DNA of 64,000 bases, taken from contig CM049316.1 of the NCBI GenBank assembly GCA_026874595.1, positions 66,984,676 through 67,048,675 on the forward strand. The letters run 5' to 3'. The notes under the pieces were generated by a model. That model was given only the letters and a program-made list of their open reading frames with translations. It was not told where the DNA came from and ran no database searches. The position numbers and the translations under genes were made by a program. Source of the DNA: Sipunculus nudus. Its lineage: Eukaryota; Annelida; Sipuncula; Golfingiida; Sipunculidae. Positions 16,002 to 54,627 of the stretch are shown here, piece after piece. Within the stretch, counting starts at the first letter, position 1. Each line of letters starts with the position of its first letter.

Positions 16002-16029
16002 TTGAAACGTGGCCACCAAACCTGCAAAA

Positions 16030-16900
16030 AGTACACAATTTTATCCACAGTAGTTTGCATTCAAGCCAGATAAAAAAAATAATGTGTTCTAACTATAAAT
16101 GAAGCGAACAGGCTCAGTTTATAGTATATACTGAGATATCTTGCTAACACGACCATCTGCGGGACAAGTCAAAGCGATCATGTTAGCGAGAGGGTTATAT
16201 TGAACAATCAGTTTCTCGACTGGGCGATAAAATGAATTTTTTAACAAATAATAGTTTAATAATAACGTTTATTAAAGTTCACACGTAGCATGTAATTCAT
16301 ATGTTCATTTACAAGGGAACAAATTATTAGGATTAACATGGTATAATACGGATCAGGTCCATTGTACAGATTGCGTTACGCGGGGCGAAATCTATCGTGA
16401 ACTGTTTCTTCAAGTATTTTGATTCTTCAGCACTTTGATATGAAGATTATCTTCATTCGACTACCATAATCAAAACGGGGGGAAACGTATGTGTACATAT
16501 ACATATCTTTATCAAATCCCTTCATATAAAATTTTACCTGTGAGTATATATGTAATTTAAGCATGTTATGTCTATAAGGCATATACTTTCATGATATGTT
16601 CAAGTACTTTGTTTATGTCAACATGTATGTGTTATGTAATTGTATGCGTTTCATGTTTGTGACTGTTTACAAGATGTATTGTTATTGTTTCAATAAAAAG
16701 AATTTGTAGGGTCCTGTCAGGTAGTCAATCCGGCAACTTCTCAACCATCTTGGATGCCGTCTTGTCATGTATGATCCTTGTCAATGGCCACGTACGCTTC
16801 GGGGTATATTAATGAGGTTGATAATCACAATTTTTCTCATTAGGAAGGGCAAGTATACGGAAAAAAAGGAGAATGATCCTCATTTGTTGTTATATGACGG
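16030..16900. other. Upstream of the receptor exon; no gene recognised
   Basis: AT-rich, with an aataaa at about 16692. It is probably intron or 5' flank of the receptor gene. No further exon could be supported. Confidence 0.3.
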
Positions 16901-21190: not shown

Positions 21191-21197
21191 CACTATG

Positions 21198-22481: not shown

Positions 22482-22589
22482 AAATTTCCTGTATTCTTTT
22501 CATTTTTTATTTGCATTTCAACTGTAGTTTTGAAACAGCCAAATTACAATAGTTGCATCATTTAATTAGCTGAAGGTCAATCTAATGGC

Positions 22590-29754: not shown

Positions 29755-29827
29755 ATTGCCCACGCATGCGCAGTGGCACTTTGACGCAATCCAGCAACGC
29801 CATCCTGTGTCGAAATCTGCAACTCAG
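29755..29827 (+). promoter_or_regulatory. Candidate promoter and first exon of CTCF (speculative)
   Basis: ACGCATGCGCAG at 29762-29773 is one base from the NRF1 consensus. It is followed at 29827 by a good donor (aactcag then GTAGGC). The next matching acceptor on this strand is 51153, directly before the CTCF ATG. Orientation and spacing fit a 5' UTR exon, but 21 kb separates them and no other proof is present. The left edge of the 7.68-kb duplication (29792) cuts between the NRF1-like site and the donor. Confidence 0.3.
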
Positions 29828-29999
29828 GTAGGCCAAGTGCCTCTATATTTAAATATTAAAACTAAATCTAGTTCACATCTTAAACTAGCAAAGCTTGCAA
29901 AAGTCTTTTTCCAGATTTAATAGGCTGATAATTCTGAAAACCGGGCTTGACATCGCTTAGAATAAAAATATGTCTTTCCCGGGTTGGCCATTCATTGTT

Positions 30000-30510
30000 C
30001 CGTGTTTAGCCGGGGCCGGCCATTTCTCAAAAAGTCTTTTCACTTTGAAGGAAATTTCCTGCAAAACCTCGCAGGAAATAGCGTAAATATCCAAAGGCTT
30101 TAACAATTGAGTACTGTAGTCGAGTTCAGGTGAGTAAATTCAGTGCTGACGTTGGCAGATTTGAACAGAAATCCTCTCGCAAATCGGGAAGGTTTATGGG
30201 CGCGTGTTTCCTCAACCTCAAGTTATGGCTGCCAAGTGGGGACAGGGGGCGCACGTTGAAATTGGCCATGGGGGCGCCAGTGCCGACATATTCACCAGTG
30301 ACACCTGGGGTCTTTTTATTGCACATCATTCTTCCCACCAAATGCTGCAACCCTGGACCGAAATCCCTAGGGGTCGGGAATTGGGCGATATGTGGCCCCT
30401 GGGTACGGGAATAGGGCGGCTTTCACAAAATGGCGGATACAGAGCCTTGCATTCGATCGACATGTTGGGTCACGCTGTCTGGCTCACACCATCATAGACA
30501 AATGGGTCGG
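30000..30510 (+). promoter_or_regulatory. GC-rich block with consensus donor and YY1-like motif (copy 1)
   Basis: A GC-rich island in AT-rich DNA. At 30129/30130 stands a full consensus donor (TTCAG then GTGAGT), and AAAATGGCGG, a YY1-type motif, at 30427-30436, with ccggggccggcc at about 30010-30021. This is promoter-like, with the donor in the plus direction, the same strand as CTCF. An exact copy lies at about 37685-38195. Transcription is not shown. Confidence 0.35.
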
Positions 30511-31252
30511 TGTGGCTTCAGCCAGTTCCAATTTATTTTACTCAGTACATTTGTTGTGTTTTTATTTAAACTTATTTTTTTCTCTGAATAAAATAATATT
30601 ATTTTGTTTTAAAATATATTTAACCTATTTGTATATTATTTTAGTTTAGCTTCATGTGTCTAAGCCAGGCCAACAGACCCCCTGTTTTCTTTCCTCTTTA
30701 TTAAAATTAGAGAAAAGATTGTATTTTTCTATCATTGCATATTATTTCATATTATTTTTTTTTTTTAATATTTTTAAACACTGTCATATAGAGATATGTA
30801 GTTTTTTAAAATGAACCAGGCCAGCACAAAGACGTATATTGAACTGCTATATTGAACTCAGAAATTATAATATTTCATTTAATTTGTTAACCATTATCTG
30901 GTAAATTAAAAAATAAATCAGTATTTTAGAATTTGAGAATATAGTGTCATAGTCATTCTATATGAAAATAAATCTTTTCAATTACTAATAATATTGTAGA
31001 AATAATTTAACTAAGTAGAAACATTTCTGTTTAGTACATTTTTGTTTCATATTAGTTTTCTTGTTATTGAAAATATTCCAACTGGCCTTCCACCACTGAG
31101 ACTGCATTAGATTTGAAAATATTCACATTTCTGTTGTAAGTTGTATACAAATAGGAGATTCACACTAAGTAGATGTGACACTGACAGATCTAATAATTAA
31201 AGTTTAAACAACCACCAAGTTTTCACAGAACATTTCAAGTTGCATCATTTTT

Positions 31253-31275
31253 TTATATATATATATATATATATT
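31253..31275. repeat. (TA)n microsatellite (copy in the second duplicate at about 38938-38960)
   Basis: TA dinucleotides within otherwise unremarkable AT-rich sequence; the surrounding 30.5-32.9 kb shows no gene. Confidence 0.9.
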
Positions 31276-32999
31276 AAAGGCAGTACCGCCTTATTTATCC
31301 TTTAAATTTTAATGTATGAGCTGTCACAATCTCCTACAAAGGCTCAATTAGGAACAGGTTTGGAGGTTTAAAATATTTTATCAATTTCTAGCTTGGTTGA
31401 CAAAATAATTTGATTTATATTTAATTTATAGATATAATACAATATTTTGAATGAAAAAGGCCATTTATTGTATCTTATTCTTCAATTTCAAAATTTAAAT
31501 GGTCACTGAAGTTTGTGAAATTTTGCAGGGATTATATATTTAAGTTAAATGTTAGTAAACCTTTTTTACCATCTTACACATGTTTAAAAGCAATCATAAG
31601 TCTGGCAAATAAATAAAAAAATAACATATATAATGTATGGCATTTTAATGCTGCACAGTCTTGTGTAAGTGGCGCAATATGGGATTCAGATTCTTTTTTT
31701 CATCTTGGATATAATTAAGTAGCCTATGTTGAGTTTGGTAGATGAGTAATTGAAAAATTGAAATTCCTAGATTGTGATGACATTCATGCTATCTTCATTT
31801 TGAACAGGATTTCAAATATTTAAAAGGTGACTGAGGAATACATTAAAATATCAAAACAATTATTCCTTGATTGTGATTACTTTCACACTATAGTTATTTA
31901 GAATGTAGCATTTCATTTTGAAAGATGGGCGACTCAACAAAAATAGTATAACCTAAAATTATGACAGCCAATGGCACCAATGGTTGCAATGGTTCTCTGG
32001 GATATGAGTCTAAGTGAGGAGTCCAAGCTAACTAGGGTCTAACAACAGTCTGTCTGTTATGCTGTATGTGCTTGGTGACCGCTGTTTGGCTGGTCATTTG
32101 CTTTTAGTTTTAAGTTTTGTTAAGTTTTCCACCTGTTACATGGTAACACACAATCCATTTTGTGAAATTTTATTCAGCAATATTACAGTAAATTGAAGTC
32201 AAGCTGAAAAAAAGTCAGAATTTTATTACCAAGCCTGTCTGGAAAGTCAACTTACATTATAATGAATTATGATTAATATTATGACTTTGTTGTTTTAATG
32301 TAATGATAGATTTTTTTCTATATTTTCACTAAACAGATTTATAAATAATAATCAGTATCCATTGGTCAACCAAATGAATTCAAAATTTTAGTTTTAAAAT
32401 TGTAGATGGATATTTAGGATAACTCAATGCTCATGGATGTAATTATTGGCAGGCCCTATAAAAAAAAAAGTATGGAACCTGGATGCAAACATTGCTGCTC
32501 TGGTCTTGCCATCAGTGCACTGTACCCGCTTGATCCGTTTGTCTCCAGGCACTACACCTGGTTAGATAAAGTTAAATTGGTATGTAGTGACCTTATAATC
32601 AAGGTCCAGGTCAAACGTTGGCCCGACCAAAGTCATTGCCTGCAAAATGGAAAAACAAGGTGCCCACTATAAATTTTCAGGTTTAAGTATTTTATATGAA
32701 AAGCAGTTGAATGGTACCATGAAAAAAGTGCTGGTTAAATTGAGATTGTAGGAAGGCTAGATTTCGCTGCATTATTTTATAAGATTTTGTTTTCAAACAT
32801 CCGTAATACTTTCAATTTTGGGAAACAGAGAGTGTACAGACATGATTTGATCACAGAAATCTTACATGTTTACTCTCAGGAGAAATTTGAGGAAATCAAA
32901 GAATTTCAGTTTCAGTAATATTTACTTATTTTTACCTCCATTCACTCATATTCTTGCATATATTAATATTATACTTGAAACCAGTTGGGCAATTCCACT

Positions 33000-33403
33000 G
33001 TGACGGACGTTACATTCAGAGAGACTTTTACCCATTTAAGTCACTCTCACAGTTAAAGCTGTCATTCAAGGAGCCTAAACTTATGTGTGTTAATAGCTCA
33101 GATCTGAGGCTGTATGATACAGGAAAGAAATGTGTCCAGATATATATGTGTCTTTCACCTACGACAAATGTCAGAATGTGACGGACGTTACATAAAAAAG
33201 ACACTGAAAAAATTCATCTGAATTTATTTCAAAATTCTCTGAATCTAAACAGTGGCACAAATTGATCTTTACCCCAGTATTAAAGGGGAACTATGTCACT
33301 TTATAAACAAATTAAAATATACCTTAAAATAATAGCCTGTTAGCAGGCAGCTTTAACACAGTTCAAAATTCTGTGTGACGGACGTTACGTGATGGACGTT
33401 ACA
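33000..33403 (+). repeat. Left cassette of GTGACGGACGTTACA words (copy 1)
   Basis: Four copies: 33000-33014, 33178-33192, 33375-33389 (last base G) and 33389-33403 (GTGATGGACGTTACA). All point the same way. The word is an imperfect inverted repeat (GTGAC / GTTAC half-sites around GGAC) with two CpGs. It sits in non-coding DNA, with the same order and spacing as the diverged cassette at 45780-46214. Confidence 0.9.
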
Positions 33404-33481
33404 TTTTGTCCAAAGGATGCAAGTGAAACTTCTATCAAAACTGTATTCTGAAAAAAAGGTTTAAGCACACTTTTTGATGAC

Positions 33482-33640
33482 TTTGCCTTGTCTAGTAATT
33501 AATGTTTTGGATGCCAAGTTGGCATCTTCATCACAAACCTATCAAAATGATATATAAATTATATATTGCAAAGACTGCATTTAGAAGGTTTGTGATGAAG
33601 ATGCCAACATGGCATCCGAAACATTACTAGACATGGCAAA
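33482..33640. repeat. Inverted repeat with ggatgcc / ggcatc arms
   Basis: 33482-33546 is roughly complementary to 33584-33639 (ttggcatcttcatcacaaac against gtttgtgatgaagatgccaa). A third, direct copy of the right arm and its flank lies at about 33857-34030. It is a MITE-like unit, duplicated again at about 41167-41325 in copy 2. Confidence 0.8.
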
Positions 33641-36600
33641 ATCCCTTGTAATTCACAGGTTCACAATTTAATGCAGTAAAAAACACTAAATATCTAAGAA
33701 AATCCCAAATTTGAATGTCCTGATGATTCAAATCTGCTTTGAAGCATATTATACAAGGACAGCAAGGGAAAGACATCTCCAACCTAGTTTATGTTTAAGC
33801 ACACTTGTTGATGACTGCAGATTATTCAGTCTTTGCAATATATACATTTTATATCATTTTGATAAGTTTGTGATGAAGATGCAAACTTGGCATCCCATAA
33901 CATTACTTGATACTGCAAAATCCCTCGTAATTCACAGGTTCACAATTTAATACAGTAAAAAACAACACTTAATATCTAAGAAATTCCAAAATTTGGATAT
34001 CCTGATGATTCAAACCAACTTAGAAGCCTATTACACATAGACAATAACAAACTAGATGACCAAGGTCGAGCGCTTGCCGGAAGTTGTAAGAGAAATAGGT
34101 GAAGGTCAGATTATTCTTTTAAATTATGTTTTATGAACAGGAGACTAAAATTAGCAACTGTTTATGTGGATGTGACCATTTATAAACAAATTATGAAGAA
34201 AATAAGCCACTGAGGTTTGTTTGTGGCCTTGACATTTGACCTTTGACCCAATTTTGAATAAAAAACAAGTTGGTCTGTTGTTAATAGATATTTACCGACG
34301 GTATAAGTTTCAGAGCGATTGCATTAAACTGTGGCCTGTACCAGATATAGAAATATTTGAATATTTCCAAGATCGATAAGTTTTACCCAAAATTAGGTCA
34401 ACATCAATATGTCAGAATATGGCCAAATCTCCACCGGAATAAGGCCATATTTTCTAATTTTCAGATGCAGTAATGAAAATTATTATAACATCATTTATAG
34501 TCTTTGAGATATGACACAATAATGATATATTGCAGTGTTGTCAGTGCAGCATTCCCTGGATGTCATATTACCGTAAAACATAAAATTATGAATGGCATAC
34601 TGTAAAGGAGCAAATGATAAAGTGAAATCAGAACCAGAATGGTATAAAAGTAAAAAAATTTAGTTAAACTAACCCCCCCCCTTCAAATTATCATTCATAA
34701 ACACAGCTGTCCCACCATTAAAACAAGGGAGCGTTGGGCCACATACAGATCTAAGCTGGAATTATCTATTTATAAGATTATAACTGCATAGAATCACAGA
34801 AGTTTGAAAAAAGGTTTAAGTTAATTTGTAAGGTCTGGTATATATATTTTCTATAAATAAACTTTACTGCTGGGAGGTGGATGGGGTTCAATCTTTATTT
34901 TCACACAGGCTGCATACCAACCATACAGGCCACTGAAAGCTACCATTTGATGCATCAGAATCTTAAATAATTGTGCAATACATGTACAGTAAATAATCTT
35001 TATTTCAACTATAGTCATGAGTTGTAAGCACCTCATGAAATATGAAACTTTTAATTTTGCTATTTTTCATAACCTTGTTTGCTTCTGTATAAGCAAATGT
35101 GGCTCAATCATAGAGCCAAGCTCTGACTTGGCCAAGTGCTTCTGTCAAATCTCTCATTTTCACACAAGTAACTGTAACCCATGGGTCATGACACTCAGCT
35201 GGTTGCCTGGTTGGTATTGGCTATAATGTGACACTAGATACATTTATGTGTTTGATACTGGTTTTCATAAGGATACTGTACAGAAGCCTGTTATTTATCA
35301 AAATAAGGTCATGCAATGAATCATGCCAGAAACTGATTAAACATTCGATGATCAATGTGTATGTCAAGAATCATGGTAATCAATGCATTAGTTATTCACA
35401 CACTGGAGCTTTTGTATCAATTTTTTTATATATACTTGGGGGGGGGGGGGGGTTATTACGAGCCCCTATAGCTTGGAGAATATGGGTAATAGAGACCTAA
35501 TTTCAAATTTTCAAGGAGGTTTTTCATGGAACTCCTGGATGTAAAGTTAAAATATTCTAGATCCAACAGTGACTATTTGTGTCCTGTAAAAAGATGACTG
35601 CTTCTATTGAAGGTCTCAAAAATAGAGCCTTCAGTGCATTACTTATTCAGATACTGGAGCTATTGTATCAAAATTTTAATTATTTGGGGGGGGGGGAGGA
35701 ACTAACAAGCCCTATAGCTTGTAGGACCTAATTTCAGGTTTCCAAGGAGTTTCCAGGTCCAGCCATAATGATTTGTGCCCTGCTAACAGCCAGACGGTAT
35801 GACGAAGGTTGACGGTCAAAGACCCATCACTACAGCTCAGTTGATTTTCTGTCAGCTGAGCTAGAAACCTTTATTGTGACTAACCTGATATCTTATAATA
35901 ATTTGCTATTCAATATTTATTCACTTAATTATTCAGCAGAGGTTACTGGATACATACCTTACTGTACACTCTTTACACAGCGCTTTACCTATAGGCCTGC
36001 TACCTATATCGTAAGCGCTGTTTGTTTTGACCTCGTATTCTGAATCGCTACACTAGAGGGGAGCACTGTATTTTGGTCCGATCAGATGAAACCCTGTGCT
36101 GGAAGACACAACCTCTATGGTTGGCTGATATGGTCCCATGATTAATAAATAGCAAATATAAATGCTGTTGGCAATTTTTTAGGGGTTGAAGAGGTCATTG
36201 TGTAAGAGCTATACCACAAACTTATTCAATAAATAGTTGTGGTCCTCTTCACTGCGTGTAAACAATTGGGATGCCCGATATGCGACACACAACTGATGCG
36301 ACAAGGTATCTACATAACTATAAGGCAGTGTTGCCAGCAAAGACGGTTAACCAGCCAGTTGAAGTATACACGAAGCAACTGTTGTTTTATTTGTCTTGAG
36401 TGACAGCTCATCGCCCTAGCAACCGTTTGAGCAGGCCACAGTCTGTACGTGGCACAGGGTCAGACAGAATGGCCCAACACGTGGTTTGCACTCGTCCGTG
36501 AATGTGCACATAGGATGCCCCGCCGGTGAGCTGTAATTCAAACCAAATTTTACAACACTGGCTACGTTTTGCTGGCAAATGGATACATGGTTACGCTAAC

Positions 36601-37053
36601 ATAGTCTTAATGTCATAATTGACCAGTTGATGATGCAACAAAGCAGAGGGAGCAATTCAAATTAGACTATTTTTACTTGAGTGCACCTAAGCGCACTTGA
36701 AGTGCAGCTATTGGCAGAGCCATGATGCCTGTCGAGTGTTTGTTAACTGGCATTTGGTTGGCTGCAAGACAAGGACACACCTCCTGGTGTATCATAAACG
36801 GTCACACCCAGCAGCAGGAAAATTTCTGCTGCCTCGGGAGGGTAACCTTACTGAGAATGCGGCTGTTTCACTAAAAATCATGAAATATAAAAAGTTGTCT
36901 TCTTGACCTTGGAAATGACAGGAAGTACCAGTGCATTGTGGGTAAATTTTGCCATGCTGCAGCTCCACCTATATTTGATTTAAGGAACTATCCTTTGTTC
37001 TAGAAAATTGAAAGAGGATAAAACAGCTGATGATTTCTTGATTCTTTGGGTGC

Positions 37054-37280
37054 GTGACGGATGTTACAAGACCCCAATTTTCCCGTGACGGACGTTACAT
37101 GTGACGGACATTACAGTTTTTTATCGCCTGCTGTATCAAACTTGTCATACTTTCCAGCAGACTCTTAATATTATTCACCTTCTCTTGACAAGACCTAAGA
37201 AAATTAAAAAGGTTATTTCAGAATTCTATCTAATTTTTCTACAATAAAAATAGTTTGACATTAATGTGACGGACGTTACA
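37054..37280 (+). repeat. Right cassette of GTGACGGACGTTACA words (copy 1)
   Basis: Four copies: 37054-37068 (GTGACGGATGTTACA), 37085-37099, 37101-37115 (GTGACGGACATTACA) and 37266-37280. The deviations are all CpG to TpG/CpA. Spacing is 31, 16 and 165 bases, against 29, 16 and 164 in the diverged cassette at 49373-49596. Confidence 0.9.
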
Positions 37281-40200
37281 TGACCCATGAAGATAAAAGT
37301 CACCCCTGACTTTCTGACCAGTCACTTCAACAGTTGGGCTGAAGCTTCTTTCTGCCTAAAATTCATTCTCTAGTGATTACAAAGTGAATGATATGAAGAG
37401 TAATACCCATTTAGTTTCTAGAAAATAAAGGAGTTCATTATAACCTGTTTTTGAGCAAATTTCATTTTCAAATTTCAGCAACGCCATCCTGTGTCGAAAT
37501 CTGCAACTCAGGTAGGCCAAGTGCCTCTATATTTAAATATTAAAACTAAATCTAGTTCACATCTTAAACTAGCAAAGCTTGCAAAAGTCTTTTTCCAGAT
37601 TTAATAGGCTGATAATTCTGAAAACCGGGCTTGACATCGCTTAGAATAAAAATATGTCTTTCCCGGGTTGGCCATTCATTGTTCCGTGTTTAGCCGGGGC
37701 CGGCCATTTCTCAAAAAGTCTTTTCACTTTGAAGGAAATTTCCTGCAAAACCTCGCAGGAAATAGCGTAAATATCCAAAGGCTTTAACAATTGAGTACTG
37801 TAGTCGAGTTCAGGTGAGTAAATTCAGTGCTGACGTTGGCAGATTTGAACAGAAATCCTCTCGCAAATCGGGAAGGTTTACGGGCGCGTGTTTCCTCAAC
37901 CTCAAGTTATGGCTGCCAAGTGGGGACAGGGGGCGCACGTTGAAATTGGCCATGGGGGCGCCAGTGCCGACATATTCACCAGTGACACCTGGGGTCTTTT
38001 TATTGCACATCATTCTTCCCACCAAATGCTGCAACCCTGGACCGAAATCCCTAGGGGTCGGGAATTGGGCGATATGTGGCCCCTGGGTACGGGAATAGGG
38101 CGGCTTTCACAAAATGGCGGATACAGAGCCTTGCATTCGATCGACATGTTGGGTCACGCTGTCTGGCTCACACCATCATAGACAAATGGGTCGGTGTGGC
38201 TTCAGCCAGTTCCAATTTATTTTACTCAGTACATTTGTTGTGTTTTTATTTAAACTTATTTTTTTCTCTGAATAAAATAATATTATTTTGTTTTAAAATA
38301 TATTTAACCTATTTGTATATTATTTTAGTTTAGCTTCATGTGTCTAAGCCAGGCCAACAGACCCCCTGTTTTCTTTCCTCTTTATTAAAATTAGAGAAAA
38401 GATTGTATTTTTCTATCATTGCATATTATTTCATATTATTTTTTTTTTTTAATATTTTTAAACACTGTCATATAGAGATATGTAGTTTTTTAAAATGAAC
38501 CAGGCCAGCACAAAGACGTATATTGAACTGCTATATTGAACTCAGAAATTATAATATTTCATTTAATTTGTTAACCATTATCTGGTAAATTAAAAAATAA
38601 ATCAGTATTTTAGAATTTGAGAATATAGTGTCATAGTCATTCTATATGAAAATAAATCTTTTCAATTACTAATAATATTGTAGAAATAATTTAACTAAGT
38701 AGAAACATTTCTGTTTAGTACATTTTTGTTTCATATTAGTTTTCTTGTTATTGAAAATATTCCAACTGGCCTTCCACCACTGAGACTGCATTAGATTTGA
38801 AAATATTCACATTTCTGTTGTAAGTTGTATACAAATAGGAGATTCACACTAAGTAGATGTGACACTGACAGATCTAATAATTAAAGTTTAAACAACCACC
38901 AAGTTTTCACAGAACATTTCAAGTTGCATCATTTTTTTATATATATATATATATATATTAAAGGCAGTACCGCCTTATTTATCCTTTAAATTTTAATGTA
39001 TGAGCTGTCACAATCTCCTACAAAGGCTCAATTAGGAACAGGTTTGGAGGTTTAAAATATTTTATCAATTTCTAGCTTGGTTGACAAAATAATTTGATTT
39101 ATATTTAATTTATAGATATAATACAATATTTTGAATGAAAAAGGCCATTTATTGTATCTTATTCTTCAATTTCAAAATTTAAATGGTCACTGAAGTTTGT
39201 GAAATTTTGCAGGGATTATATATTTAAGTTAAATGTTAGTAAACCTTTTTTACCATCTTACACATGTTTAAAAGCAATCATAAGTCTGGCAAATAAATAA
39301 AAAAATAACATATATAATGTATGGCATTTTAATGCTGCACAGTCTTGTGTAAGTGGCGCAATATGGGATTCAGATTCTTTTTTTCATCTTGGATATAATT
39401 AAGTAGCCTATGTTGAGTTTGGTAGATGAGTAATTGAAAAATTGAAATTCCTAGATTGTGATGACATTCATGCTATCTTCATTTTGAACAGGATTTCAAA
39501 TATTTAAAAGGTGACTGAGGAATACATTAAAATATCAAAACAATTATTCCTTGATTGTGATTACTTTCACACTATAGTTATTTAGAATGTAGCATTTCAT
39601 TTTGAAAGATGGGCGACTCAACAAAAATAGTATAACCTAAAATTATGACAGCCAATGGCACCAATGGTTGCAATGGTTCTCTGGGATATGAGTCTAAGTG
39701 AGGAGTCCAAGCTAACTAGGGTCTAACAACAGTCTGTCTGTTATGCTGTATGTGCTTGGTGACCGCTGTTTGGCTGGTCATTTGCTTTTAGTTTTAAGTT
39801 TTGTTAAGTTTTCCACCTGTTACATGGTAACACACAATCCATTTTGTGAAATTTTATTCAGCAATATTACAGTAAATTGAAGTCAAGCTGAAAAAAAAGT
39901 CAGAATTTTATTACCAAGCCTGTCTGGAAAGTCAACTTACATTATAATGAATTATGATTAATATTATGACTTTGTTGTTTTAATGTAATGATAGATTTTT
40001 TTCTATATTTTCACTAAACAGATTTATAAATAATAATCAGTATCCATTGGTCAACCAAATGAATTCAAAATTTTAGTTTTAAAATTGTAGATGGATATTT
40101 AGGATAACTCAATGCTCATGGATGTAATTATTGGCAGGCCCTATAAAAAAAAAAGTATGGAACCTGGATGCAAACATTGCTGCTCTGGTCTTGCCATCAG

Positions 40201-40684
40201 TGCACTGTACCCGCTTGATCCGTTTGTCTCCAGGCACTACACCTGGTTAGATAAAGTTAAATTGGTATGTAGTGACCTTATAATCAAGGTCCAGGTCAAA
40301 CGTTGGCCCGACCAAAGTCATTGCCTGCAAAATGGAAAAACAAGGTGCCCACTATAAATTTTCAGGTTTAAGTATTTTATATGAAAAGCAGTTGAATGGT
40401 ACCATGAAAAAAGTGCTGGTTAAATTGAGATTGTAGGAAGGCTAGATTTCGCTGCATTATTTTATAAGATTTTGTTTTCAAACATCCGTAATACTTTCAA
40501 TTTTGGGAAACAGAGAGTGTACAGACATGATTTGATCACAGAAATCTTACATGTTTACTCTCAGGAGAAATTTGAGGAAATCAAAGAATTTCAGTTTCAG
40601 TAATATTTACTTATTTTTACCTCCATTCACTCATATTCTTGCATATATTAATATTATACTTGAAACCAGTTGGGCAATTCCACT

Positions 40685-41088
40685 GTGACGGACGTTACAT
40701 TCAGAGAGACTTTTACCCATTTAAGTCACTCTCACAGTTAAAGCTGTCATTCAAGGAGCCTAAACTTATGTGTGTTAATAGCTCAGATCTGAGGCTGTAT
40801 GATACAGGAAAGAAATGTGTCCAGATATATATGTGTCTTTCACCTACGACAAATGTCAGAATGTGACGGACGTTACATAAAAAAGACACTGAAAAAATTC
40901 ATCTGAATTTATTTCAAAATTCTCTGAATCTAAACAGTGGCACAAATTGATCTTTACCCCAGTATTAAAGGGGAACTATGTCACTTTATAAACAAATTAA
41001 AATATACCTTAAAATAATAGCCTGTTAGCAGGCAGCTTTAACACAGTTCAAAATTCTGTGTGACGGACGTTACGTGATGGACGTTACA
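40685..41088 (+). repeat. Left GTGACGGACGTTACA cassette (copy 2)
   Basis: Words at 40685, 40863, 41060 and 41074, identical to those in copy 1 at an offset of 7685. Confidence 0.9.
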
Positions 41089-44000
41089 TTTTGTCCAAAG
41101 GATGCAAGTGAAACTTCTATCAAAACTGTATTCTGAAAAAAAGGTTTAAGCACACTTTTTGATGACTTTGCCTTGTCTAGTAATTAATGTTTTGGATGCC
41201 AAGTTGGCATCTTCATCACAAACCTATCAAAATGATATATAAATTATATATTGCAAAGACTGCATTTAGAAGGTTTGTGATGAAGATGCCAACATGGCAT
41301 CCGAAACATTACTAGACATGGCAAAATCCCTTGTAATTCACAGGTTCACAATTTAATGCAGTAAAAAACACTAAATATCTAAGAAAATCCCAAATTTGAA
41401 TGTCCTGATGATTCAAATCTGCTTTGAAGCATATTATACAAGGACAGCAAGGGAAAGACATCTCCAACCTAGTTTATGTTTAAGCACACTTGTTGATGAC
41501 TGCAGATTATTCAGTCTTTGCAATATATACATTTTATATCATTTTGATAAGTTTGTGATGAAGATGCAAACTTGGCATCCCATAACATTACTTGATACTG
41601 CAAAATCCCTCGTAATTCACAGGTTCACAATTTAATACAGTAAAAAACAACACTTAATATCTAAGAAATTCCAAAATTTGGATATCCTGATGATTCAAAC
41701 CAACTTAGAAGCCTATTACACATAGACAATAACAAACTAGATGACCAAGGTCGAGCGCTTGCCGGAAGTTGTAAGAGAAATAGGTGAAGGTCAGATTATT
41801 CTTTTAAATTATGTTTTATGAACAGGAGACTAAAATTAGCAACTGTTTATGTGGATGTGACCATTTATAAACAAATTATGAAGAAAATAAGCCACTGAGG
41901 TTTGTTTGTGGCCTTGACATTTGACCTTTGACCCAATTTTGAATAAAAAACAAGTTGGTCTGTTGTTAATAGATATTTACCGACGGTATAAGTTTCAGAG
42001 CGATTGCATTAAACTGTGGCCTGTACCAGATATAGAAATATTTGAATATTTCCAAGATCGATAAGTTTTACCCAAAATTAGGTCAACATCAATATGTCAG
42101 AATATGGCCAAATCTCCACCGGAATAAGGCCATATTTTCTAATTTTCAGATGCAGTAATGAAAATTATTATAACATCATTTATAGTCTTTGAGATATGAC
42201 ACAATAATGATATATTGCAGTGTTGTCAGTGCAGCATTCCCTGGATGTCATATTACCGTAAAACATAAAATTATGAATGGCATACTGTAAAGGAGCAAAT
42301 GATAAAGTGAAATCAGAACCAGAATGGTATAAAAGTAAAAAAATTTAGTTAAACTAACCCCCCCCCTTCAAATTATCATTCATAAACACAGCTGTCCCAC
42401 CATTAAAACAAGGGAGCGTTGGGCCACATACAGATCTAAGCTGGAATTATCTATTTATAAGATTATAACTGCATAGAATCACAGAAGTTTGAAAAAAGGT
42501 TTAAGTTAATTTGTAAGGTCTGGTATATATATTTTCTATAAATAAACTTTACTGCTGGGAGGTGGATGGGGTTCAATCTTTATTTTCACACAGGCTGCAT
42601 ACCAACCATACAGGCCACTGAAAGCTACCATTTGATGCATCAGAATCTTAAATAATTGTGCAATACATGTACAGTAAATAATCTTTATTTCAACTATAGT
42701 CATGAGTTGTAAGCACCTCATGAAATATGAAACTTTTAATTTTGCTATTTTTCATAACCTTGTTTGCTTCTGTATAAGCAAATGTGGCTCAATCATAGAG
42801 CCAAGCTCTGACTTGGCCAAGTGCTTCTGTCAAATCTCTCATTTTCACACAAGTAACTGTAACCCATGGGTCATGACACTCAGCTGGTTGCCTGGTTGGT
42901 ATTGGCTATAATGTGACACTAGATACATTTATGTGTTTGATACTGGTTTTCATAAGGATACTGTACAGAAGCCTGTTATTTATCAAAATAAGGTCATGCA
43001 ATGAATCATGCCAGAAACTGATTAAACATTCGATGATCAATGTGTATGTCAAGAATCATGGTAATCAATGCATTAGTTATTCACACACTGGAGCTTTTGT
43101 ATCAATTTTTTTATATATACTTGGGGGGGGGGGGGGGGTTATTACGAGCCCCTATAGCTTGGAGAATATGGGTAATAGAGACCTAATTTCAAATTTTCAA
43201 GGAGGTTTTTCATGGAACTCCTGGATGTAAAGTTAAAATATTCTAGATCCAACAGTGACTATTTGTGTCCTGTAAAAAGATGACTGCTTCTATTGAAGGT
43301 CTCAAAAATAGAGCCTTCAGTGCATTACTTATTCAGATACTGGAGCTATTGTATCAAAATTTTAATTATTTGGGGGGGGGGGAGGAACTAACAAGCCCTA
43401 TAGCTTGTAGGACCTAATTTCAGGTTTCCAAGGAGTTTCCAGGTCCAGCCATAATGATTTGTGCCCTGCTAACAGCCAGACGGTATGACGAAGATTGACG
43501 GTCAAAGACCCATCACTACAGCTCAGTTGATTTTCTGTCAGCTGAGCTAGAAACCTTTATTGTGACTAACCTGATATCTTATAATAATTTGCTATTCAAT
43601 ATTTATTCACTTAATTATTCAGCAGAGGTTACTGGATACATACCTTACTGTACACTCTTTACACAGCGCTTTACCTATAGGCCTGCTACCTATATCGTAA
43701 GCGCTGTTTGTTTTGACCTCGTATTCTGAATCGCTACACTAGAGGGGAGCACTGTATTTTGGTCCGATCAGATGAAACCCTGTGCTGGAAGACACAACCT
43801 CTATGGTTGGCTGATATGGTCCCATGATTAATAAATAGCAAATATAAATGCTGTTGGCAATTTTTTAGGGGTTGAAGAGGTCATTGTGTAAGAGCTATAC
43901 CACAAACTTATTCAATAAATAGTTGTGGTCCTCTTCACTGCGTGTAAACAATTGGGATGCCCGATATGCGACACACAACTGATGCGACAAGGTATCTACA

Positions 44001-44739
44001 TAACTATAAGGCAGTGTTGCCAGCAAAGACGGTTAACCAGCCAGTTGAAGTATACACGAAGCAACTGTTGTTTTATTTGTCTTGAGTGACAGCTCATCGC
44101 CCTAGCAACCGTTTGAGCAGGCCACAGTCTGTACGTGGCACAGGGTCAGACAGAATGGCCCAACACGTGGTTTGCACTCGTCCGTGAATGTGCACATAGG
44201 ATGCCCCGCCGGTGAGCTGTAATTCAAACCAAATTTTACAACACTGGCTACGTTTTGCTGGCAAATGGATACATGGTTACGCTAACATAGTCTTAATGTC
44301 ATAATTGACCAGTTGATGATGCAACAAAGCAGAGGGAGCAATTCAAATTAGACTATTTTTACTTGAGTGCACCTAAGCGCACTTGAAGTGCAGCTATTGG
44401 CAGAGCCATGATGCCTGTCGAGTGTTTGTTAACTGGCATTTGGTTGGCTGCAAGACAAGGACACACCTCCTGGTGTATCATAAACGGTCACACCCAGCAG
44501 CAGGAAAATTTCTGCTGCCTCGGGAGGGTAACCTTACTGAGAATGCGGCTGTTTCACTAAAAATCATGAAATATAAAAAGTTGTCTTCTTGACCTTGGAA
44601 ATGACAGGAAGTACCAGTGCATTGTGGGTAAATTTTGCCATGCTGCAGCTCCACCTATATTTGATTTAAGGAACTATCCTTTGTTCTAGAAAATTGAAAG
44701 AGGATAAAACAGCTGATGATTTCTTGATTCTTTGGGTGC

Positions 44740-44966
44740 GTGACGGATGTTACAAGACCCCAATTTTCCCGTGACGGACGTTACATGTGACGGACATTAC
44801 AGTTTTTTATCGCCTGCTGTATCAAACTTGTCATACTTTCCAGCAGACTCTTAATATTATTCACCTTCTCTTGACAAGACCTAAGAAAATTAAAAAGGTT
44901 ATTTCAGAATTCTATCTAATTTTTCTACAATAAAAATAGTTTGACATTAATGTGACGGACGTTACA
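44740..44966 (+). repeat. Right GTGACGGACGTTACA cassette (copy 2)
   Basis: Words at 44740, 44771, 44787 and 44952, identical to those in copy 1 at an offset of 7686. Confidence 0.9.
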
Positions 44967-45152
44967 TGACCCATGAAGATAAAAGTCACCCCTGACTTTC
45001 TGACCAGTCACTTCAACAGTTGGGCTGAAGCTTCTTTCTGCCTAAAATTCATTCTCTAGTGATTACAAAGTGAATGATATGAAGAGTAATACCCATTTAG
45101 TTTCTAGAAAATAAAGGAGTTCATTATAACCTGTTTTTGAGCAAATTTCATT

Positions 45153-45779
45153 GTTAAATTTAGCCATTTTTACGGGTGCAAAATTCTTGCAGACAGAGTA
45201 TGTTTCAACCATAAATTTATTTAGTTTCATAAAGTTAGGGGTCATATGGTCAGATTAAAGCCCTTTGCTGGATGCAAAACACAAATTAATTTTTTGCTCA
45301 TCATGTCCCTATTTTCATGGAATTGCCCAGTTGGGCCCCCACTTATTTTCAGGAAATTTTACTATGATCCCTTCTCATTCTTGTTTCATAATTTTTTTTT
45401 TTTTATATTTGTCTGCAAACTGGAAATTACTTGTGATTTTTAGGTTTGATTGACTTGTTGTGACTTGAAGTGTCAGTAGTTTACAAAAAAAAAATATTGA
45501 AATTGGAACCCTGTAATATAAAAACAATTACTTAATTTGTGTATTGATTACTCCAATCATTGAATGTCCCCAATTCTGTAATGACAAGTTTGGAAATAAA
45601 CCTCTGTAAGATGGTGGAGGTATTGTGTTTTTGATACGGTTAGTTGGTTAGTTAGGAACTTACTAGCTTAACTCCTAAAATACTTGAGAGACAAAATTTT
45701 GAAAATCTTTTGGAACATTCATGAACTGCCATATAAGATAGCCATGTTCACCATTATTATATAACTGGGCCTTTCCACT
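45153..45779. other. Unique AT-rich spacer; no gene recognised
   Basis: T-runs and short open frames only. It follows the end of duplication copy 2 and precedes the diverged word cassette. Confidence 0.35.
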
Positions 45780-46214
45780 GTGACTCGGATTACATTTTTA
45801 CTTGGTTCCCCTGTTTATTGTGCTATTAAACTAAGTGTAATTCATTTAAGTTAATCTTTTATCAGCTGACAGTTACTGAGATTGACCATAAAAAATAAAA
45901 GCCAAACAAATGTTTTGATAAAACGTATTAATTGAACATACACAGCTAAAAGTGTGTTTTGATAAAACATATTAATTGAACATACACAGCTAAAAGTGTG
46001 ACTCGCGTTACATTCTAGGGACATCTGTAATCTCCATATCTTTTCTGTTTCAATTTCTCCTCAGATTATGAACAATAAAAAAAGATAACTTGTCTAGTTG
46101 ATTTTGTCACATATTCAGCTGCAAGAACATATAAGATTGTAATCAGCTGTTTGCTTAATTTTAAAGAAAAATTTCTTAATGTGTGTGACTCATGTTACCG
46201 TGACTCGCGTTACA
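45780..46214 (+). repeat. Left cassette of GTGACTCGCGTTACA words (diverged paralogue)
   Basis: Words at 45780-45794 (GTGACTCGGATTACA), 45998-46012, 46185-46199 (GTGACTCATGTTACC) and 46200-46214. A 44-bp tandem duplication (units from 45911 and 45955) accounts for the longer first gap (218 against 178). The context ttccactgtgac before the first word matches the context at 32993-33004. Confidence 0.85.
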
Positions 46215-47108
46215 GAGTGTCCTTTCTATATCTCCAGTTTCAAAATTCAACTTCTAAAGGTACCAAACTTATTTATGATGCCAACCAGGTGAACTTTTGT
46301 AAAGATGAAAACAATAATTATTGTAAACAGTTTAACATGGATTATAATACTGATTTATCAAGCTGTAAGTGGTAATTCATACTTTCCAATAACACACCTG
46401 CTTTATTCAAAATTCATGCTTAGAGCTGACTCAGTTGAAAAGATTGGAAATAGATGCAGTGAGAACACCTTATTAGACATTTCATTATCATGTCATCATC
46501 ACTGATTTATTTATTGACAAATAACTTGTGAAATTATTTAGAGAAAATATTATGAGATATCAGCAATCATTACATGAAATAATATTAAATGATGTACACA
46601 GGGTACAAACAGACAATTTTACTGGTCAAACACATAGAAAATAATGTTATTTTACACAAAGTAATTCAAAAACATGTGAGGTTTTGCAATAAAAAATGAA
46701 GAAAGACTCCCTGCCAAACGATATAAATTGTTCTAAGTGTAAAAGCTGGTTATATTTAAGAATCCTCAAAGTTGAAGTGGCCTCGGTTATTAACAGTGAA
46801 TTGTGGTCTCAACAGGTTAAGTTCTTGTTTTAAATAAAAGATATCATCTGGATTTGTTTGCCATTTCAGTTTTAACCAATTGGCACCGTCACAGACTCTT
46901 GGTATTCCTCAGACTCCATTTATATCACCTCTCAAGGATACACAATTTCATCATAATCTTTGCAGCACCAGTCCCCTACTGAGATACAGTGTAGGTAATG
47001 ATCAAATGCATTAGTAGCATCTGCGGTGTGACATCACTGGATTTTGAAATATACACCTTAATTATTACAAAATTTTTACCTTATAATTCAAATTTACACA
47101 GACTCAAA

Positions 47109-48362
47109 CAGGGTTGGGTTTTATCCGGATAAAACTTGTTTAATCCAGGACATTGGATAAAACTGGGTTTTGTCCGGTTTAATCCAGTTTTATCTGGATA
47201 ATACAGAATTAAACTGGATTAAACTAAGAATCACCCTTTAAAATTTAATTAAATTAACAAAAATGATAATCTGGATAATTAAGTTCAGAAGGTTTATTAA
47301 TATATTAACATTATATAAGTTTTATAGCCAATTGGCAATTTCCTCCAGGTTCATGTTTCACTGTTGTCAGCATCCACTATTAGCTTATGCTCAACACACG
47401 AGATTGACGAGCTGTCCCTTTGTCTTTAATGTTACTTTTCTGGCTGGTAGTCAGTTTCCCAATAGGATATATCATCCTTATTGCATCATCCTCGATCAGC
47501 CATCAAATATATACTCATAGTGACAGTGCAAGCTTATAGGGTGACTTTTGTAGCCCAAACTAATTATAGAGACTCTATGGAGGTGGATGCCTGAATGACT
47601 TTGATCCAATGGAGGTATTTTCCTCTCAGGCTGTCATGACTGGATGAATGTGAAATGGTAGCTCACTGTGGCAGCTTGTATAAACATGCCTTTCCAGTGG
47701 TCAAGTACTACACTACAACCCAAAATTCAGAGAAACCAACTTGGGCAAGATAGCTTTTCAAGTATTTATCCCTTGCTTTTGAAAGGTCTTCCCCACAAAA
47801 TTATTGACATAGTGACTGATGTCACTGTATATATTAAGTCATTTAAGCAATAAATGAGTTGCTTATGTACATCTCTCTCAGATGTAAGAATAGATGCTTA
47901 TCTGTGTATATATGGTATTCTATAGTACAACTGATTGTGGAGTTAAACTAAACATGTGTGAACTGCAGTTGTTTAGCTTTCTTATAGTGTAATGTAAAAA
48001 ATATGTGATTATGCTTTAATAAGTCATACTTGAACTGACCTCGCTTCAGAAGAGAAATAATTTAAAGTTTCAAAATTATTATTAAAATCATGGTATGACT
48101 ATCTTTGACAAAAACAATGAGTTTTTTGTATAAATATATAGTCCCATAATAATTCAGTTGACTAGACATAAATTTTCCTTATAAGAACTGTATTTTTTTA
48201 CAGTGGAAAGCTAAACTTAATATAAAATGTCTACTTCACAGACAGTATACACCCAAATTTCGGATAAAACTGGATAAAACCTGTTTTATCTGATCCGGAT
48301 TTACTGGATTTATCCAGTGGGTTAAACAGACTGCGGATAAAATGATTAAACTGCCAACCCTG
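47109..48362. mobile_element. hAT-like non-autonomous element with a perfect 8-bp target duplication
   Basis: GACTCAAA flanks both sides (47101-47108 and 48363-48370). The ends are CAGGGTTGGGTTTTATCCG and, from 48362 on the minus strand, CAGGGTTGGCAGTTTAATC. Both sub-terminal zones are packed with iterations of ggataaaactgg / ccagttttatcc. No coding frame is credible. It lies inside the diverged cassette block, so it inserted after that block formed. Confidence 0.88.
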
Positions 48363-48749
48363 GACTCAAACAATCCTCATGACTGATTTAAAAATGTTCC
48401 TCAGCCTGCTTTACTGTATATTTTACATGTGTTAACAATTTACCTCTTATCAATATTCATGTAAAAGGCTATTAATATTTTCTTGTAAATATAAATTATT
48501 TATATATATAAGACCTGCACTTCTCCATGTGTTTTCAGTTAAACCAGGGTGGATTCACCATGTTATTAAGATTTTAGTACATTATGTTATTTTTATAGGA
48601 AATAGCCGTCGGACACCTTCATGTATATCAGAATCCATATACTAATGTTACATGTCTGTTTTCCACATATTTATATAAAACACGTTTGTGGTAAAAACAT
48701 AACATTCTAAAAGTTTTACTACATTTCTGACAAAGATTTTTTAGTTCAG

Positions 48750-48910
48750 GTGACTTAAAGGAGCTATAGAAATGGTCCTTTGTTTGTTGTCCGGCCGGAC
48801 ATCAGTTATCAAGGCATGTACTGAAACTGTTGGACCTACGAATCCAAAATTCTACATGTATACTGTAATGTAGTTAAATATCCAAAAGTTCTTCTACCCA
48901 ACTTAAAGCT
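48750..48910. repeat. Dispersed repeat fragment
   Basis: ttggacctacgaatcc...aaaatt and preceding ttgttgtccgg phrases match 57465-57560. It also contains a short ccggccgg palindrome. A TA run follows at 48960-48980. Confidence 0.5.
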
Positions 48911-49372
48911 TTTAATATCGTCAAATAACAAAATTTCCTCTCAGATTTTCAAATGCTGATATATATATATATATATATATACAAGTACAATTTACATTTG
49001 CTAAAGTTTTACAGAGTTCAGCTGTGCGCCATAACACACGGGTCCATCTCTGGTTGCAAATCTCTGGTTGCAAATACCTTCAGTCTGGATTTAAATTCAG
49101 ATTTCATTTGCAAAACTTGGATTTGAATTTTTAACAGGATATCAAGAGCATTAATGGATTGATGTTTAGGTGTTGCCCCTATGCAATGAGTCAAGGACTC
49201 ATTAATAATATATGATAAGAGCTAAATTAATCATATCAAATTAAATTTATCATAATAAAAAGACTGGACCAAGCTGTTGTTCTCTTTGAAAGTCAGACAT
49301 ATATCTATTACAGTAACTTATTTTATAATGAAAATGATAGCTCACCCTGTAATGCACCAGCTTAATTTTAGC

Positions 49373-49596
49373 GTGACTCGCGTTACATTACCCCATCCTT
49401 TGTGACTCACGTTACATGTGATTCGCGTTACCAGTGTTTAGTTTGCTGTTTCACACCAAAAGGAGCTGTGACACTTGAATAGTTGGTACCATCAAATGAG
49501 AATTAAAAGTCTGGAGGAAACTTTTAAACAGCCTCTTCAACTTGTAACGTATAGAAAGTATAGAGAAAATTCACTGTTTTTGTTACTCGCGTTATA
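49373..49596 (+). repeat. Right cassette of GTGACTCGCGTTACA words (diverged paralogue)
   Basis: Words at 49373-49387, 49402-49416 (GTGACTCACGTTACA), 49418-49432 (GTGATTCGCGTTACC) and 49582-49596 (GTTACTCGCGTTATA). Same order and spacing as 37054-37280. The acccca phrase between the first two words is shared. Confidence 0.85.
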
Positions 49597-49599
49597 TCT

Positions 49600-51153
49600 T
49601 CATTGATGCTCATGGTAAGGAGAGGGTTCATAAAAATTTTCAATGAGAGAAGGAATTTTAACCATTGCACAATGTAAAGTCATATGTTCATATTATGGCT
49701 GCAGTATGGAAGCCTTTGAAATATTTAATTAACAGGAGATATAATCAGGATAAATTTGTGCTTTTATGACCCAAAAATAGCAGTTTACACTTATGTCACT
49801 TATACTTTGTGACAGTGAAAGAGTTTAGAGAGAAACCACATTTAATTATTATATTCCAGAAACTTCAAGACACATGCTATCATCAAAAGTACAACTTTTC
49901 TAAATTTAACACATTTAATTTTTTTCAACTTTGTCCCTCAAATCATGGAAATGCCCAACTTGTTATTCTCTGCTAGTAGTGTATAAAAAACAGGTCATGG
50001 ATGCTTATTGACATGAAAGTATTAAATTTGAAACCAACCAGAAAAGAACCTTGATGTAATGTTCCCATCCCCCCCTCCCCCCCCCCCCTGAAAAAAAATC
50101 ATCTACCCCATAAAAAACATTTTGTGTGTGCTTGCAGTTTACCAAAGCACAAAATTCCACAGAGACAGATGTACATGTATGTGAACTTAAGCTCTATTTT
50201 GTGACCTGAATTTTTTAAGAGACCAAAGCTGTATTTCAGATTACCGGTACATCTGAAGGATGCCTTTGAAAAAAGGAGTCCTAGACTCTGAGAGGGAGTT
50301 AGATTTATACCAAATGACGTCCAATGTCAGCCCGTCCACATACAAACCTCTATAACTTTTGCAAAAATGCCTGAAATAAGTGTCATGTACCACATTAGGT
50401 ATCTTATTTGTGAGACTGAATTTTATGATATTCTCTTTTCACCGAAAAGTCCCATTTTCCAAATAGTATCATTTTTACAATCACACTAGAAGGATATATT
50501 TGATATATATAAGTTCATAAAAATAAATTCTGATACAATATGATACATTTCTTCATTATTTTTACTCAAATATGATACATTTCTTCATATATTACTCAAT
50601 AGTGTAACCACAGTATTTAACCACATAACTCCTTATCATTTGTACAGTAATTTATGCTTGATTTCCTGGGCTGGTGATAATGTCCTGCACAGAGCAGTTC
50701 GCTGAAGTGTGGAAAGTGGTTCATGAAAAACTTGTTCACCTGACAACACAGATATGACAACTCTTTGGGCATTTGAATAATGAAGTGCTCAGCTCTGGGA
50801 TTGTTTTATTCATAAAGGTTTTGTTTTTACAAGTGTATGATTATAACCCTTTCACAAATATTATGAATTGAAACCCCTGATTATTTTGAAGCAAACCATA
50901 GTAGTGAAACCTTTAAAAAAATACTCAAATTCTTGGTTTGTCATATATTAATTTATGACATAAAATTTTGTTTACCTGCCATATTCTTGTAATCATTATC
51001 AGATAACTTCAGGATAACTCTTGTATTTGTACATTATTGAGCAGGATTTGCTTTGTAGCCAAAATATTTTCTTGAAGACCACTGGGGGGAATAAGGTGTT
51101 CTATGCCCATGGTGATATCCTTGGTGCTAATCCATATTTTTTTTACTTTCTAG
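49600..51153 (+). other. Intron or 5' flank directly upstream of the CTCF start exon
   Basis: AT-rich with a C-tract near 50070-50090. It ends in a strong acceptor (ttttttttactttctag, AG at 51152-51153), so the CTCF coding exon is preceded by at least one non-coding exon further left. Confidence 0.6.
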
Positions 51154-51159
51154 ATAACC

Positions 51160-54054: not shown

Positions 54055-54627
54055 GTGGGTGCATTTAACTCTTTCTATTTGATCACAGTTTTGTATATAA
54101 CCACTCAATTCTTGTTGCTATGAAGCAAGAGCTATCAGCTTCCTGTGGCTGTCCATAAACATATATATAGCAACCGTATGATGCCAAGATGAATATTATA
54201 TGCAGTGTTAGCATATATGTAGACCAAATAATGATTAAATATTCTTATATATTGCTGTGCTAACATTTGATCGAGGATATAATGTAACGTTCCATGTTTA
54301 AACAATAGTTCATTAATACATTATTCATTATTATAGCCCTGGTCTGTAAGTTAAACCAAGATGGTATAATATTATAATATTTCACCAAGTTTTTATGAAA
54401 GCCTACAGATTGGCCATTCTCCAATATAATTTTTGCAGAACACAAACTTAAGAAATACACCCTTTAATCATATAATTTACAAGCCAGAGCTGTTAAATTG
54501 GTAAAAATAATGACATGAATATTAAATTTGTCATAAATGATTAGTACTCGTCCATTTTGTTTTGTAGTAAATAAGTTAATGTGGAAATTCTTCTTAACAT
54601 ATCTTTATTTAATTTATTTTCTCTCAG

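Follow-up and report, generated by a model that had tools for sequence, protein, structure and literature searches.

Within a 64-kb stretch of the Sipunculus nudus genome (contig CM049316.1, positions 66,984,676 to 67,048,675 of the forward strand; hereafter ‘the window’) we find two DNA transposons, A and B, which are internally deleted non-autonomous copies from two subfamilies of a single family. Each carries eight copies of a short ‘word’, set in clusters towards its two ends; the centre of the word is predominantly GGAC in A and TCGC in B, whilst the distances between the words are closely similar. Elsewhere in the genome a third type of element, with the centre TCAT, shares this geometry, and more distant relatives carry arrays of wholly different words. 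From these comparisons of sequence we consider it highly probable that the words serve the family’s own transposase as subterminal recognition sites, and that the word and the DNA-binding surface of the protein have changed together, with the geometry being kept.

Word arrays in the window and across the genome

A search of the window for GTGACNNNCGTTACA, allowing up to two mismatches, returns 38 matches against an expectation of 3.4 (standard deviation 2.0) and a maximum of 9 in 100 shuffles; 24 of these words, eight each in the two copies of A (A1 and A2) and in B, form arrays far beyond chance. We number them L1–L4 and R1–R4, from left to right. All 24 had been listed in an earlier note on this DNA, made from the letters alone, and are recovered here together with their spacings: 178/197/14/3665/31/16/165 in A and 218/187/15/3173/29/16/164 in B. 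The note gave every A centre as GGAC and nearly every B centre as TCGC, which holds for seven of the eight words in A (the first right-hand word, R1, being GGAT) and for five of the eight in B, where the remaining three read TCGG, TCAT and TCAC. Its explanation for the longer first step of B, a 44-bp local duplication, is borne out by self-comparison of the window, the corresponding step being 178, 172 and 178 in the TCGC copies L015, L032 and L033, as against 218 in B; and the hAT insertion it saw in the long gap of B is indeed present, as a hAT-like insertion with an 8-bp target-site duplication (TSD), GACTCAAA.

Our reading departs from that note in its treatment of A and B as two paralogous blocks. 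Terminal inverted repeats (TIRs) sit directly beyond the outermost words of both, and because each has TIRs of its own and a different TSD (AGTT for A, AACT for B) they are separate insertions; blocks derived from a paralogous host gene are ruled out on the same grounds. The elements also run on past the limits originally drawn for them, the second copy of A to 45328 and B to 49956. As for the duplicated A block that had been described, it lies within a 7.69-kb tandem duplication, 99.9% identical, that doubled A after A had inserted, so that the second A copy is a later duplicate. No right TIR is found in the first copy before 37479, its right end having been removed at the duplication junction. 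Both copies contain inverted and direct repeats of ~80–180 bp (33479–34037 and 41164–41722), which recur in several further A copies and could be a nested element.

Copies were sought across the genome (1.43 Gb in 153 contigs) with a left-end pattern in which the word centre was left free, the reversed pattern serving as control. The pattern occurs at 64 places, three of them inside the window, against 11 for the control; of the 61 outside, 26 were read, 20 as 10-kb stretches, five as further elements, plus L039. A looser pattern consisting of a single word is noisy, with 245 matches against 158. The family has an 11-bp TIR, GGGCAWTTCCA, and a TSD of 4 bp. Both ends were located in 18 GGAC copies (a count that omits L028, whose right end was not found, and the truncated A1), and in all of these but L027 the TSD is perfect, the 17 perfect ones comprising 14 different tetramers. 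Amongst the TCGC copies the TSD is perfect in L015 and B and, by visual reading, matching in L032 but not in L033; the right end of L016 was not found. TIRs together with such varied 4-bp TSDs identify the family as dispersed DNA-transposon insertions, and the words as their subterminal repeats.

Three centres, GGAC, TCGC and TCAT, share one cassette geometry genome-wide. In most GGAC copies the four left words begin 13, 191, 388 and 402 bases inward of the left tip; the four right words have steps of 31/16/165, and some 375 bases separate the last of them from the right tip. Exceptions arise by indel or loss of words: L018, for instance, lacks L3 and L4, and in L011 the stretch ahead of L3 is 35 bases shorter. 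The TCGC copies L015 and L033 have left starts of 13, 191, 378 and 393 and right steps of 29/16/166, with L032 being 6 bases shorter, and the TCAT copies (type C) have left starts of 13, 193–196, 379–382 and 403–406 and right steps of 18/16/164–167. Three of the TCAT copies, L029, L030 and L031, were rejected as independent insertions: their flanks are shared beyond the left TIR, and the two that were followed rightward, L030 and L031, also have common right flanks. They look like one insertion inside another repeat and are counted once, with L039 as the second (L031 has the right TIR TGGAACTGCCC and the TSD CATT; L030 has AAAT on the left and CATT on the right).

Two side observations concern the distribution of the family. 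Eight left ends, seven GGAC and one TCGC, with L027 and L028 among them, lie within ~0.56 Mb at C16:52.9–53.5 Mb; a local cluster that contrasts with the dispersed copies found elsewhere. Two other places, C16:45432523 and C16:39976964, show a possible further word type with the centre TCCT.

Homogeneous words in diverged flanks

Adjacent word pairs number 86 in the genome, against 7 for the reversed control. Thirteen rows were set aside, 12 of them evenly spaced and taken as minisatellites (C2:32493645–32494236 and C6:77855769–77856439) and the last a lone pair with the centre CCAG (C15:43169136); the remaining 73 were sorted by hand. A GG-type centre stands beside a TC-type centre in none of the 73, with centres starting with neither being present in five (AG, AC with TT, CC). 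Random mixing of centres within loci, on the absence of which the earlier note had staked its claim of concerted change, is therefore not what is seen genome-wide. Nor have words and flanks diverged equally, its second stake: with one subfamily consensus aligned to another, the inner stretches between words score z of −0.8 to 3.1 over shuffled sequence, that is, near saturation, whilst the half-sites GTGAC/GTTAC are retained. Higher values come from the right tail in the comparison of A with B (z 4.1) and from the 13-base tip (z ~6); the right-tail segment of type C contained a later insertion, such that its values of −0.7 and −0.5 are no fair comparison.

These figures bear most directly on the suggestion that old shared ancestry is all there is to explain, the words being simply those parts of paralogous blocks that change most slowly, drifting like their flanks. 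A few short phrases in the flanks do still align between subfamilies, as that would predict; but the flank alignments lie mostly within ~3 standard deviations of shuffled sequence while the half-sites are retained, the change of centre is the same at nearly all sites within an element, where drift acting on each site separately would yield eight different centres, and GG and TC centres are never paired. We regard this explanation as exceedingly improbable.

Within an element, individual positions carry variants of their own. R1 is GGAT and R3 ends in CATTACA, each in 17 of 18 aligned GGAC copies, and L3 ends in TTACG in 15 of the 18. L3 is TCAT in 13 of 15 L3–L4 pairs from TCGC copies; this centre at L3 is thus a trait of the TCGC subfamily rather than noise. 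The four TCAT copies that were read, representing two insertions, have L2 as GC(G/A)AC...TTACC, and TTACC at L4 in all. Gene conversion, which the earlier note had held out as its alternative, or unequal exchange, could homogenise the words within an element with no link to the specificity of any protein, and would leave them alike within a locus and different between subfamilies, as observed; conversion among words would, however, erase the position-specific variants that persist across copies (R1 GGAT, R3 CATTACA and L3 TTACG in the GGAC type, L3 TCAT in the TCGC type, L2 and L4 in the TCAT type), and for this reason we think it very unlikely.

The words of the GGAC ends take in most of the consensus CpG cells (323 of 359 at the left end, 252 of 324 at the right), with word cells making up 1060 of 8387 cells at the left and 1077 of 11487 at the right. 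Outside CpGs, variation affects 10 of 737 word cells against 216 of 7291 flank cells at the left end, and 5 of 825 against 234 of 10338 at the right; the uniformity of the first word is not used as evidence here, because that word helped to select the copies. The sequence TCATG corresponds to TCGCG after decay of both CpGs, and CpG decay may be one route between TCGC and TCAT words, the TCGC elements keeping one TCAT site. As sole cause of the difference between these two types it was rejected; it does not account for GGAC.

Transposase lineages and the proposed mechanism

One decayed transposase copy was found for every one of the three centres: L022 for GGAC, L038 for TCGC and L039 for TCAT. 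An autonomous relative with an encoded protein, which the earlier note had advised looking for, is in this decayed form available for these three types. The gene of L022 (6419 bp) lies on the minus strand; L014 and A of the window, the deleted A copies compared, keep its start-codon edge, marking A as an internal-deletion derivative. The TCGC copies L015, L032, L033 and B hold a decayed C-terminal piece, with 38–52% identity in segments of 29–40 amino acids (aa); the remnant in B matches the C-terminal piece of L022 at 40.5% over 37 aa and 41.4% over 29 aa (E = 7e-4), and its presence likewise points to B as a deletion derivative of an autonomous element. Searching the genome with the protein core of L022 yields at least 71 matches (150 of 436 candidates scored), two groups of which lie inside word-bearing elements, L038 and L039. 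Between types the core is mostly 63–66% identical, with values of 42–52% in short frame fragments (25–48 aa); the N-terminal basic part gives 37–44% and the C-terminal pieces 43–51%. An alignment of five sequences has D83, E86, D159 and D200 as invariant residues of the core, compatible with a predicted DDD/E transposase with no named family behind it; that the protein is a transposase we infer from its place in the element and its conservation. No relatives of the protein were found in viral_contigs or genome_contigs.

Six places whose transposases are more distant, L040–L045, were picked from the list of L022-core matches, with identity or an open frame as the criterion and their DNA as yet unseen (L045 as one of five further places taken up later). 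Their core identity to L022 is 26–46%, L045 being the lowest, and in all six a lineage-specific word forms a two-ended array. Lineage D is represented by L040 and L041, two copies of the same element (99.7% identity over 4763 bp); their open frame spans 734 codons from stop to stop, and visual reading gives the TIR GGGGCATTTCACGGTATTT and the TSDs TTAG and TTAT. L041 has eight words GTCACGGACGGGACA (up to three mismatches) with steps of 169/188/23 and 19/168/165, and the same eight are present in L040. The protein of L042 is 64% identical to that of L040, and its word, GTTACGGACGGGACA, is found six times (shuffled-word mean 0.1). In L043 (lineage E), GTGACGGAATCAC has 12 matches, two probably by chance (shuffled mean 1.2), with left steps of 177/189/22; in L044 (lineage F), GGTAACGGTGTCGAG is found nine times (shuffled-word mean 0.1); and in L045 (lineage G), TGTAAAGGAGAACA has eight matches with up to three mismatches, one probably by chance (shuffled mean 0.9), at steps of 379/358/359 and 21/344. 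Genome-wide, the word of L044 has 139 occurrences and its reversed control 4; for the word of L040/L042 the corresponding figures are 30 and 14, with the 30 including an apparent third copy near the transposase match at C16:40263371. As a control for two-endedness we looked for a 9-mer with five or more occurrences, clustered to either side of a gap no shorter than 2500 bases, a limit fixed after the arrays had been seen: all six distant places contain one, with 5–9 occurrences, whilst none of 20 control segments of 5.0–6.4 kb reaches five and one reaches four.

Beside the array of L040 itself, three words GTTACGGGYGGGACA lie outside the element, at 413, 774 and 5694 on the reverse complement of the locus (the gene being on the minus strand); these suggest one more related array beside or around it.

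Taking all seven lineages together, 25 steps of more than 45 bases separate neighbouring words or clusters, 20 of them of 155–203 bases and five of 344–379. The best single period is 179 bases, and none of 2000 uniform draws does as well; as the lineages are related, the steps hand-picked and the period chosen afterwards, this test is a guide only. The nucleosome repeat is also of ~180 bp in size, but any link between the two is speculation.

The earlier note had read the word as the binding site of an element-encoded protein whose specificity had shifted, and this reading has gained TIRs and TSDs, a transposase copy for each word type and recurrence in distant relatives; the binding itself we infer. 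If the transposase and its words did change together, the transposase, or the DNA-binding part of it, would occupy all eight sites, and the kept distances (a site near the left tip, steps of ~165–200 bp, pairs or triplets 14–31 bp apart) would serve the assembly of a multi-subunit complex that joins both ends of the element for cutting. A shift in the DNA-binding surface of one lineage’s transposase would then be followed by all the sites of that lineage’s elements; they would have to follow, because only copies with matching sites get mobilised, and such mobilisation would leave each lineage with uniform words, distinct from those of other lineages and at fixed positions. More tentatively, this might be an animal transposon superfamily in which the conserved gauge of the sites (one near the left tip, ~180-bp steps, close pairs) is a ‘synaptic frame’ within which the word has been rewritten in concert several times, giving at least eight words in seven lineages of one genome, with no word read by the transposase of a lineage other than its own; we offer this as a possibility, and with some doubt.

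The words might instead be bound by a protein of the host, either a transcription factor or a component of chromatin, that drives or silences the elements, with the words following or escaping it. The retention of CpGs in the words would fit such a protein, close pairs and ~180-bp steps would suit binding to chromatin, and the C-terminal transposase pieces are about as diverged as the N-terminal part. A single protein would, however, favour a single word, whereas one genome holds eight, each with its own transposase lineage and present at both ends (except in L038 and L039, which are partly read); furthermore, the positions of the words are measured from the transposon tips. We consider a host protein unlikely.

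Several observations nevertheless weigh against a transposase that has changed with its words. The N-terminal part is not clearly faster than the C-terminal part, such that the change of specificity cannot be localised. The three nearest autonomous copies (L022, L038 and L039) are all broken; the piece of L038 was read without its left tip and contains four of seven expected words, and L039 has a first word with the centre TCTT and no right-hand word in the 4.25 kb read. Pfam gives no DNA-binding or transposase domain above its cut-off, the best below it being BssC_TutF (E = 0.0012), and a sequence search of the PDB is without a match (best E values 0.14 and 0.51). Word orientation, all-direct in A, B and C, is mixed in the distant lineages, where word number also varies from 6 to about 10 and the left steps of F (L044) and G (L045) are of double length. 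The shuffled-word controls are flattering, because the distant words were chosen from the very sequences counted, and if the two-ended condition is dropped the commonest 9-mer reaches at least five occurrences in four of the 20 control segments. Lastly, with CpGs counted, the left-end words of GGAC copies vary about as much as their flanks (2.7 versus 3.0%).

That a transposase should switch specificity together with every one of its dispersed sites calls for explanation, because intermediate elements should be immobile. Here a single genome provides a graded series of similar geometry, each step with a transposase sequence: centres that differ by 2–4 bp (GGAC, TCGC, TCAT), half-sites that differ by one base (GTCAC/GTTAC) and words that differ entirely. 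The series permits tests of which residues read which bases, of orthogonality between lineages, and of relic sites, such as the TCAT at L3 of TCGC elements, as intermediates. If nucleosomes underlie the ~180-bp steps, the series would also be relevant to the assembly of transposition complexes in a chromatin setting.

Window features and comparison with known systems

Table 1. Elements A and B and associated features of the window (positions counted from its first letter)
Feature	Position	Strand	Basis or remark
Tandem duplication holding A, 7.69 kb	29792..45164 (29792-37479 / 37476-45164)	.	99.91% identity over 7690 bp
A element copy 1 (A1), GGAC type	32987..37479	+	left TIR at 32987
A1 word L1	33000..33014	+	word match
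A1 word L2	33178..33192	+	word match
A1 words L3, L4	33375..33403 (33375-33389, 33389-33403)	+	word match
A1 words R1-R3	37054..37115 (37054, 37085, 37101)	+	word match
A1 word R4	37266..37280	+	word match
A element copy 2 (A2), GGAC type, 4657 bp, both ends	40672..45328	+	TSD AGTT each side
A left TIR GGGCAATTCCA	40672..40682; identical at 32987-32997	+	
A2 word L1	40685..40699	+	word match
A2 word L2	40863..40877	+	word match
A2 words L3, L4	41060..41088 (41060, 41074)	+	word match
A2 words R1-R3	44740..44801 (44740, 44771, 44787)	+	word match
A2 word R4	44952..44966	+	word match
A right TIR	45318..45328	-	
B element, TCGC type, 4190 bp, both ends	45767..49956	+	TSD AACT each side
B left TIR GGGCCTTTCCA	45767..45777	+	
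B word L1, TCGG variant	45780..45794	+	word match
44-bp local duplication in B	45911-45956 / 45955-46000		self-comparison of window
B word L2, TCGC, shifted by 44-bp local duplication	45998..46012	+	word match, self-comparison
B words L3 (TCAT, the subfamily’s usual centre there), L4 (TCGC)	46185..46214	+	word match
Decayed transposase C-terminal remnant in B	46783..46985	-	tblastn, two stops and frame change
Later hAT-like insertion in B	47109..48362	.	ends CAGGGTTGG/CCAACCCTG, 8-bp TSD GACTCAAA
B words R1-R3	49373..49432 (49373, 49402, 49418)	+	word match
B word R4	49582..49596	+	word match
B right TIR GGGCATTTCCA	49946..49956	-	

To the right of B, its open frame beginning ~1.2 kb away, lies a CTCF gene (51154–54123, plus strand, with possible further exons near 54613 and 55377), the zinc-finger region of which matches PDB chain 7w1m_H, transcriptional repressor CTCF (E = 2e-113). 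Elsewhere in the window are a 334-aa open frame for a rhodopsin-like seven-transmembrane receptor (15036–16040, minus strand; Pfam 7tm_1, E = 2e-14), a 648-bp tandem duplication that is 99.8% identical and probably very recent (21196–22485), and a tandem repeat of ~280 bp in about four copies, 88–93% alike (59381–60510).

With TIRs, short TSDs, dispersed sites, a putative encoded transposase and non-autonomous copies derived by deletion, the family belongs with the class II elements. Termini of GGGCA and a 4-bp TSD separate it from En/Spm (CACTA), and the same TSD, together with the lack of a hAT domain in Pfam, from hAT. piggyBac, Kolobok and Sola3 duplicate TTAA at the target, a sequence from which the TSDs seen here (for example TTCA, AGGG, CTCT, ACCT and AGTT) depart. 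The 4-bp TSD and short TIRs do agree with Sola, as judged against the description of Sola2 from slime moulds in PMC3627910: there too the TIRs are short (12–13 bp in one species), the 4-bp TSDs are AT-rich, and deletion derivatives lack most of the transposase. In that paper the term ‘subterminal’ appears three times, for Helitrons and not for Sola2.

Subterminal sites have been described in other superfamilies. Those of the hAT element Hermes are bound by the BED domains of a transposase octamer, being read by the N-terminal domain of this multimeric protein, and their placement is critical (PMC10368747); as here, there are multiple sites with positions set relative to the tip. Hermes sites are the 4-bp AAGT/C and its TSD is 8 bp (PMC10368747), unlike the 13–15-bp words described here, which are mostly 155–203 bp apart, and neither a BED domain nor any other finger was found by Pfam in our protein.

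Closer in kind are the CACTA elements of soybean, whose subterminal repeats are sites for an element-encoded DNA-binding protein and whose subterminal motifs differ between the subfamilies Tgm1 and Tgmt*, with coevolution being raised by the authors (PMC2613891). The earlier note’s remark that no described system has this pattern was therefore too strong: in soybean, as here, subfamily-specific subterminal motifs occur in one genome alongside diverged transposases (PMC2613891). Titles and the starts of abstracts, with subscription papers thinly covered, gave no such array in a family with a 4-bp TSD, although one may have been described elsewhere. The soybean elements differ in having CACTA termini, a 3-bp duplication and numerous repeats (in Tgmt*, 4 on the left and 24 on the right; PMC2613891); the present family has GGGCA termini, a 4-bp TSD, about eight sites in near-fixed geometry and a transposase with no Pfam match. 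What is already known, then, is that subterminal motifs can be specific to a subfamily; what is new is the repeated rewriting of a long word in a retained frame, across seven lineages of one genome, in a family with no match in Pfam or the PDB.

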